Of a stretch of 64,000 bases of DNA, positions 30,419 through 31,208 are shown in pieces. Position numbers and translations under genes: made by a program. Each line of letters begins with the position of its first letter. Positions within the stretch are counted from its first letter, which is position 1. The notes below the pieces were generated by a model, which was not told where the DNA came from, did not search any database, and saw only the letters and a program-made list of their open reading frames with translations. This stretch comes from Alicyclobacillus acidiphilus NBRC 100859. Lineage in GTDB: Bacteria > Bacillota > Bacilli > Alicyclobacillales > Alicyclobacillaceae. The DNA lies in assembly GCF_001544355.1 (NCBI RefSeq), contig NZ_BCQI01000010.1, positions 1 to 64,000 on the forward strand. Direction: 5' to 3'.

Positions 30419-30492
30419 GCGGGTGTAGTTCAATGGTAGAACTCCAGCCTTCCAAGCTGGTAGCGTGGGTTCGATTCCCATCACCCGCTCCA
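30419..30492 (+). tRNA. tRNA-Gly (UCC)
   Basis: 74 nt with encoded CCA. The acceptor is GCGGGTG/CACCCGC, the anticodon loop is CTTCCAA with TCC at 30451-30453, and the T arm is GGTTCGATTCC. It reads GGA codons. Confidence 0.96.
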
Positions 30493-30530: not shown

Positions 30531-30560
30531 GGTTTACAGAGGTTTACAGTGGTTTACAGA
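30531..30560. repeat. three tandem 10-bp repeats GGTTTACAGW
   Basis: GGTTTACAGA, GGTTTACAGT and GGTTTACAGA follow each other without spacers, right after the tRNA-Gly hairpin and just before the hairpin-array region. Confidence 0.9.
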
Positions 30561-30573
30561 GGAATCGCTCCGT

Positions 30574-30875
30574 TTCGGGTGCAGCGGCGGCGAATAAGCG
30601 GCTCGGGGCGGCTTAAGTGTGTCGAATCGTCGCAGTTGCGACAAATAAGCGGTCCAGCACCGCTTAATGGGCTGGAGCCAGACCATTGCGGGGGCACCTG
30701 GGGCAAATAAGCAGCTTTGGGCCGCTTATTTGCTTTCGATCCCGCCGCTTCGCCGAAATAAGCGGCCTTGGGCCGCCTAATTGCCCGCGCCCCCTTGCCA
30801 GCCTCCGCGCCCCCTGCCAGCCTCCGCGGCTCTGCCCGCGATCCCCTGGCCGCCTGCCGCGATCGCGCCGCTGCA
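30574..30875. repeat. hairpin-array repeat, copy 1 (TAAGCGG/CCGCTTA)
   Basis: A non-coding, GC-rich unit of about 300 bp that recurs at 30925-31208. It holds four stem-loops built on the same words: TAAGC/GCTTA (30595-30615), TAAGCGGT/ACCGCTTA (30646-30666, perfect 8 bp, 5-base loop), CAAATAAGC/GCTTATTTG (30704-30732, perfect 9 bp) and TAAGCGGCC/GGCCGCCTA (30759-30779, one mismatch). A further perfect stem GTCGCA/TGCGAC lies at 30629-30642. The tail is low-complexity CCGCGCCCCC-type sequence and carries a 21-bp insertion relative to copy 2. Confidence 0.9.
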
Positions 30876-30924
30876 CGATTCCGGGCGAAGGAGGCGGCGG
30901 CCATCGTGATCGCGCCGCTGCACG

Positions 30925-31208
30925 ATTCCGGGTGCAGCGGCGGCGAATAAGCGGCCCGGGGCGGCTTAAGTGTGTCGAATCGTCGCAGTTGCGACAAATA
31001 AGCGGTCCAGCACCGCTTAATGGGTTGAAGCCAGGCCATTGCGGGGGCACCTGGGGCAAATAAGCAGCTTTGGGCCGCTTATTTGCTTTCGATCCCGCCG
31101 CTTCGCCGAAATAAGCGGCCTTGGGCCACCTAATTGCCCGCGCCCCCTTGCCAGCCTCCGCGGCTCTGCCCGCGCCCCCTGGCCGCCTGCCGCGATCGCG
31201 CCGCTGCA
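30925..31208. repeat. hairpin-array repeat, copy 2
   Basis: Direct repeat of 30574-30875 at an offset of 353 bp (332 bp after the 21-bp difference near the end), with only a few base changes by eye. The same four TAAGCGG-based stem-loops are kept. Between the copies, 30876-30924 holds GC-rich sequence that repeats CGCGCCGCTGCACGATTCCGGG. Apparent long ORFs through both copies translate to repetitive Arg/Pro/Ala-rich peptides and are very unlikely to be genes. Confidence 0.9.

Follow-up and report, generated by a model that had tools for sequence, protein, structure and literature searches.

Introduction

The systems closest to the element reported here are the 52-nt tandem repeats of Bacilli. 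In the accessible text of Subirana and Messeguer (PMC8161180), these are described as constant in size, variable in sequence, species-specific, abundant in Bacillus and Paenibacillus, and of no known function. The authors propose proteins that polymerise on the DNA, or small RNAs, and their discussion states that B. coagulans transcribes related 52-nt repeats. The element is best read as belonging with this class: according to the same text, the 52-nt repeats are non-coding, occur in Bacilli with a period of 51–53 nt and often hold short words together with their reverse in one repeat, and the combination of constant spacing with unrelated, lineage-specific sequence is also true of the element. 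The two differ in that the 52-nt repeats run head to tail over at least four units of 51–53 nt, whereas the element is dispersed and has four dyads with centres 51, 62, and 51 bp apart; its middle spacing is longer (61–62 or 72 bp), it is near-symmetric as a whole, and its array is not open-ended.

Other interspersed repeats share parts of this picture. In the accessible part of PMC3116915, REP/BIME and REPIN sequences likewise appear as many intergenic palindromes with tandem clusters and lineage-specific sequence, but REPs and REPINs are palindromes of 20–40 bp, single or in inverted doublets, whereas the element has four dyads of ~27 bp at fixed spacing within 195–198 bp. The BOX elements of pneumococcus (125 modular interspersed copies in one genome, with predicted stem-loops, in the accessible text of PMC3049150) follow the plan boxA-boxB(n)-boxC with variable n. 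In the element, by contrast, dyad number and spacing are fixed and the sequence differs between genera. A further dispersed repeat of Bacilli, bcr1, is ~150 bp long and carries a stem-loop. PMC2267715 and PMC3733652 list it as a MITE of the B. cereus group, a single species group, and their accessible passages do not mention a four-dyad geometry for it. MITEs have terminal inverted repeats, a target-site duplication, and a parental transposase; in the element, both strands give matches to its own model, and flanking arrays hide its junctions. A literature search, which covered few subscription papers, returned no description of a four-dyad element.

Here, we analyze such an element in Alicyclobacillus acidiphilus NBRC 100859, starting from a 64,000-nucleotide stretch (the window; contig NZ_BCQI01000010.1, positions 1 to 64,000). 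Four dyads at 51/62/51 bp and an almost constant length are shown over 98 copies. We give roughly even chances to the reading that these are phased arrays of half-sites for a putative dimeric DNA-binding protein, carried on a dispersed, intergenic, non-coding element.

Results and discussion

Two copies in the window

The original prediction had described two near-identical units of about 300 bp. There are indeed two copies, 97% identical over a direct repeat of 237 bp (30573–30809 and 30926–31162), but their start-to-start distance is 353 bp and the unit is thus nearer 350 bp. Each contains the four expected stem-loops, as dyads with TAAGC/GCTTA-type arms (Table 1), and the perfect 8- and 9-bp stems are found in dyad 2 (8 bp) and in the outer stem of dyad 3 (at least 9 bp). 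The claim that the stems stay paired in both copies holds for the most part; dyads 1 and 4 have mismatches, and dyad 4 of copy 2 has one more broken pair than that of copy 1. The array lies, as had been noticed, in a gene-free stretch behind tRNA-Gly, the next gene being called from 31335. Its structure also exceeds chance, since folding is stronger than in dinucleotide shuffles (z −4.41 and −5.59, one per strand); any dyad array folds on both strands, and these values therefore do not decide between a hairpin and a double-stranded site. An Rfam scan of the locus gave only the tRNA above threshold and nothing over the element, with a sub-threshold P17 match (30886–30942) between the two cores, and a scan of eight related loci gave no match.

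Table 1. Element copies and neighbouring features, in window positions.
Feature	Position	Strand	Remarks
tRNA-Gly, neighbour outside the element	30419..30492	+	
Short tandem repeat, left of copy 1	30531..30562		10-bp unit x 3.2
Element core, copy 1	30590..30785	+	196 bp, four dyads
Dyad H1, copy 1	30592..30618		TA-N17-TA at 30595-30615
Dyad H2, copy 1	30643..30669		TA-N17-TA at 30646-30666; perfect 8-bp arms
Dyad H3, copy 1	30705..30731		TA-N17-TA at 30708-30728; outer arms CAAATAAGC/GCTTATTTG
Dyad H4, copy 1	30756..30782		TA-N17-TA at 30759-30779
C-rich short tandem repeat, right of copy 1	30785..30828		20-bp consensus x 2.2
GCGATCGC-containing box, right of copy 1	30857..30875	+	GCGATCGC itself 30859-30866
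Element core, copy 2	30943..31138	+	dyads 30948-30968, 30999-31019, 31061-31081, 31112-31132
GCGATCGC-containing box, right of copy 2	31190..31208		GCGATCGC itself 31192-31199

A dispersed family of constant length

A plain DNA search of the genome with the repeat gave 51 matches, and a covariance model built on 52 copies gave 150 (150 of 1347 candidates scored). Among the 150 matches listed are at least 122 distinct places, at least 114 of them of 185 nt or more and at least 8 shorter, several of the shorter ones at contig ends. It is because of these copies that the array is no accident; the dispersed family that had been suspected exists, and the contrary option that the unit is found only here, as just a local duplication, is excluded. 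Within the family, the window pair itself did arise from one member by local duplication: 9 of 11 side-by-side pairs in the genome are 92–99% identical (the other two 70–72%), so pairs of this kind derive mostly from local duplication, whereas mean identity between loci is 74% (first 52 copies).

Alignment A1 comprises 52 copies, with three partial places left out, and a second set comprises 46 of 48 further places (out are L218, cut by a contig end, and L227, of 165 nt). All 98 aligned copies measure 195–198 bp, and 68 of them 196 bp, with the ends set by the alignment or the model. By crude gene calls, none of 41 loci has a copy inside a gene, and the gaps that hold copies are convergent in 9 cases, tandem in 16, and divergent in 8, with 8 at a contig edge; a BIME-like placement between convergent genes was rejected, the same crude calls giving no such bias. 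A coding role was likewise rejected: stop-free copies among the 52 number 0, 5, and 0 in the forward and 0, 15, and 11 in the reverse frames, and so no reading frame is kept open. Outside the elements, no DNA was common to three or more of 80 loci at the blastn level; only three pairs share any, and an autonomous transposon partner was dismissed on this count. No neighbour gene is common to three or more loci. Membership of the REP/BIME class, one of the original suggestions, is not supported, given a unit of 196 bp with four dyads as against short REPs and a genome in which no Y1/RAYT-type transposase was found (PF01797, no match at E <= 0.001; the control matched 5 of 14 genomes).

Anatomy and symmetry

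In the A. acidiphilus genome, each dyad is a ~27-bp TA-N17-TA sequence with TAAGC and GCTTA in its arms, and the eight half-sites of an element mostly read AAATAAGCGKCC inward; the first linker carries a nearly invariant TGTCGAATC. The element's own model matches many of its copies on either strand, and the whole element is thus roughly palindromic. When each arm is compared with its mirror arm and with its dyad partner (sums over four), the respective scores are 3.34 and 3.45 for ten copies of the own genome, 2.54 and 2.20 for genome G040, 3.09 and 2.75 for G032, and 2.62 and 2.39 for G038. Every arm combination lies above shuffles (z 2–7, pooled over lineages), for which shared lineage alone would suffice.

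Hairpins or double-stranded sites

Taking a single copy from each of 79 loci, we find 87.1% of cells paired vs 85.8% after shuffling (88.5% vs 87.6% in A1 alone); some pairs are broken in at least one third of copies, and one stem pair is G.A in 27 of the 79 loci. Cells compensated on both sides number 50 vs 33.2 expected (sd 4.6), most clearly at the inner pairs of dyads 3 and 4. The search for compensatory changes that the original prediction had proposed thus yields, in the own-genome alignment, an excess over shuffles that is real but small. The near-independent variation of the arms within the genome argues against a conserved hairpin or RNA, while the compensated pairs would allow some pairing constraint or arm-to-arm conversion. 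We read the half-sites as probably recognized in double-stranded DNA with the two arms weakly coupled, and a nucleoid-protein or DNA-processing site, also among the first suggestions, would still be the best reading.

The least probable of the readings that we considered is that transcription of the intergenic regions yields a structured RNA or runs through a block of bidirectional terminators. The folding of both strands and the terminator-like A-rich and T-rich arm ends would suit it, as would the transcription of related 52-nt repeats in B. coagulans, as stated in the accessible text of PMC8161180. Yet the folding is about as strong on one strand as on the other, the gaps that hold copies are of all three orientations (9 convergent, 16 tandem, and 8 divergent among 41 loci, by crude gene calls), and independent hairpins need no strict linker lengths, whereas here length is strict and sequence free. 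With no Rfam family over the element and only weak compensation within the genome, the structured RNA first suggested is not supported.

Constraint, gain, and loss

L157 (genome G321) and L158 (G145) represent one orthologous locus in two species that share a genus. Over the alignment they are 86% identical, with 104 of 108 dyad positions identical vs 54 of 93 linker positions, and linker lengths are 24/45/24 in both. A third species, G418, has the linkers of G145 (93/93) and a 2-bp insertion inside dyad 4; the three together amount to one independent comparison. It is thereby shown for this orthologous locus that dyad sequence and linker length are kept while linker sequence drifts. A selfish or passive repeat without function, whose copies replication slippage and quasi-palindrome repair create and homogenise, would fit the 92–99% identity of the 9 tandem pairs, the flanking micro-arrays, and the sequence turnover between genera; we regard it as improbable, since orthologous dyads are kept while the linkers diverge at constant length (in that one comparison) and other families show this geometry again in unrelated sequence.

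The best-matching congener, G003, showed no apparent synteny at the window locus, and the clpP locus was therefore used to follow gain and loss. In the own genome, two copies occupy an 845-bp gap upstream of the clpP promoter. The corresponding gap measures 98–110 bp in six congeners with both edges aligned, and no element was found in the 330 bp upstream of clpP in 14 of 14 congeners. Elsewhere, one copy of G275 is absent from G440, whose flanks are 91–94% identical and whose gap has 74 bp of other DNA, so that no clean insertion footprint is seen.

Hairpins that are recognised by shape are known from integron attC sites. A mobile element that moves as single-stranded DNA, its dyads being hairpins known by shape, as proposed for REPINs, would let sequences drift while the arms stay roughly complementary. 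This is indeed how the arms behave in the lineages seen, sequences differing; the numerous copies, the empty clpP site of the 14 congeners, the copy of G275 missing in G440, and the 50 compensated pairs vs 33.2 in shuffles agree with it as well. We nevertheless consider it unlikely: within the own genome the arms vary nearly independently, the half-sites of G040, G032, and G038 match the mirror arm better than their own partner, no Y1 transposase was found in the own genome, only three pairs among 80 loci share outside DNA at the blastn level, and the 74 bp of other DNA in G440 leave no clean footprint.

Several four-dyad elements of G040 (L119, L118, L122, L123, L127, and L130) are nearly identical and follow, at a few hundred bp, a putative 5S rRNA that we recognized by eye, so that they travel with rrn operons. 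Transposition as their source was rejected, rrn homogenisation explaining the near-identity.

Geometry in relatives

Model R1 gave no match in 14 congeners. Of 41 genomes in the family, 10 had matches, the own included, and among these four-dyad elements were confirmed in G040, G032, G038, and G039. The spacings are 51/61–62/51 in G040, G038/G039, and G178 and 52/62/52 in G032, as obtained mostly with fixed-length models, one scan being confined to 50–52/60–63/50–52. The R1 matches of G018, G035, and G037 turned out to be other dyad arrays and those of G030 and G033 short matches, with no confirmed four-dyad element. A sequence-only model, R2, built from 39 elements (alignment A2), matched 23 of 398 genomes of the class, the own included, in 16 of 145 genera and ten families, on the best six candidates per genome.

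A free-spacing scan of 26 loci allowed 38–64 bp for the first spacing, 50–85 bp for the middle one, and a third within 2 bp of the first. In 17 loci, from families f5, f28, f30, f34, f41, f45, and f57, the score exceeded the highest of 26 shuffles (40.4). Their middle spacing is 61–62 bp in 14 cases, 72 bp in two that are mutual orthologues, and 65.5 bp in one (L253, where by eye it is 72 bp and the fourth dyad is not clear), and their outer spacings are 50–53 bp. The other nine loci failed, including L249 (62) and L251 (72). R2 matches in two congeners (L247 and L254, of G003 and G013) and in G360 (L257) were rejected after failing the four-dyad scan. L158, the second G145 locus, has 51/72/51 from centre 2875.5 on, found outside the model match. 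Across other genera and families, dyad and linker sequences thus differ and spacing is kept, and the steps between 51, 61–62, and 72 bp are each about one helical turn.

Dyads with TA-TA ends were also counted in 400-kb samples, taken at even steps in G275 and G398 and hand-picked away from known copies in G040. The G398 sample has 18 dyad pairs within 200 bp vs 1.6 in shuffles. Of these 18 distances, 15 fall in the geometry, at 50–51 (6), 62 (2), 112–113 (3), and 162–164 bp (4), that is, at the spacings of 51/62/51 and their sums; the remaining three involve doubtful dyads. About five unrelated dyad types contribute, with arms such as TTTAATTGCA, TAACGGACC, TAAGTGGA, TAGCTGCA, and TAGCTGGA. 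This recount speaks for the geometry. The G040 sample has 24 pairs vs 1.6, six of which belong to a single, new 51/63/51 array and a seventh of which lies at 51 bp; the remainder is mostly a second series at 41–42, 134–135, and 175–177 bp with GATC-containing dyads. That series is seen at L366 (2350–3800) and L350 (17650–17840) and is about one helical turn shorter than the 51–52 class. In G275, there is no excess (6 pairs vs 6.0 in shuffles). Exact-pattern scans gave 24 and 3 stretches with a single match each, judged to be chance.

A relaxed dyad scan of the samples gave mostly noise and pointed to tandem arrays. Frameless arrays with a period of 25–150 bp number 7 of 13 arrays in G275, all of 51–52 bp and each with a dyad above the shuffle mean; 2 of 12 in G398, with periods 38 and 51 and no dyad above shuffles; and 2 of 5 in G040, one of period 61 that lacks a dyad and one of period 41 that has one. 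The open-frame filter behind these counts is crude and excludes visible 51–52 bp dyad arrays of G398. We assign the frameless 51–52 bp arrays to the 52-nt class that Subirana and Messeguer described. Together with the failed congener loci, the arrays of G398 and G040 without dyads speak against generality of the geometry. Many unrelated tandem arrays with a period of 51–52 bp were seen at L307–L346, in the complete genomes G275 and G398.

Flanking tandem repeats

Short tandem repeats lie within 40 bp of the element on the left in 25 of 52 copies and on the right in 25 of 52, with a unit that differs by locus. They cover 29.0% of bases within 150 bp vs 0.28% beyond 600 bp for these 52 copies, and 18.3% vs 0.30% for 46 further ones, and are thus 60–100 times denser beside the element in the own genome. 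In relatives, the cover is 13.0% vs 3.0% (G040), 25.6% vs 3.5% (G032), and 4.4% vs 1.4% (other class loci), and flank repeats are nearly absent in G038/39 (1.1% vs 0.65%). On the strand shown, left flanks are G-rich and right flanks C-rich, with a GC skew of +0.30 and +0.31 on the left and −0.40 and −0.34 on the right in the two copy sets, so that on both sides the strand copied in the direction of the element is G-rich. The flank repeats suggest, but do not show, polymerase stalling at the element.

Proposed mechanism

In the reading as phased half-sites, each dyad, 21 bp from TA to TA or two helical turns, would stay double-stranded and be bound by a dimer of the same DNA-binding protein. 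Spacings of about 5, 6, and 5 turns (5, 7, and 5 in some relatives) would place four dimers on one face of the helix, where they may assemble into a single, nearly symmetric nucleoprotein complex, by which the DNA would be folded, bridged, or blocked. Such a complex could stall polymerases at the edges of the element, and slippage of the stalled 3' end could produce the locus-specific tandem repeats, whose G-rich strand has its 3' end directed at the element on both sides.

Several results count against phased dimers: the compensated pairs above shuffles and the own-genome dyad partners, which match slightly better than mirror arms; the G275 sample without excess and the different series of G040 (41–42, 134–135, and 175–177 bp); the lack of a dyad above shuffles in three of the four frameless arrays of G398 and G040; the 2-bp insertion in dyad 4 of G418 and the near-absence of flank repeats in G038/39; the R2 matches in only 23 of 398 class genomes and the better-than-shuffled folding of both strands; and the fixed-length or narrow-spacing models from which the geometry of relatives mostly comes. 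More tentatively, and with some doubt on our side, there may be a spacing code throughout the class Bacilli, in which unrelated palindromes at integer helical turns (~41, 51, 61, and 72 bp), in four-dyad elements or tandem arrays, would be read by one conserved architectural protein, or by a protein family whose specificity drifts; this would organise or insulate the chromosome and mark barriers to replication.

Repeats of constant size and variable sequence have been published from Bacilli without explanation (accessible text of PMC8161180), and the four-dyad element gives them an anatomy of half-sites, dyads, helical-turn spacing, and near two-fold order. It also offers a bounded test piece of 196 bp and one orthologous pair that keeps dyad sequence and linker length, which together with the anatomy make the question of the reading protein directly testable.

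Observations beside the element

By eye, many other copies also have the GCGATCGC box downstream of the element, at the corresponding position; over the whole window, GCGATCGC is not over-represented (4 found vs 4.8 expected). Locus L150 of G035 repeats a single dyad (GGATAAGCCGGTTTTCGCGGCTTATGTG) at a short period, with GCGATCGC between the units, and is possibly a relative of the element. The element also bears on assembly, several copies lying at contig ends of the own genome. At the very start of the contig, positions 3–117 of the window hold a (CGCCACT)x16 tandem repeat, which looks like the C-rich flank of another copy where the assembly broke.
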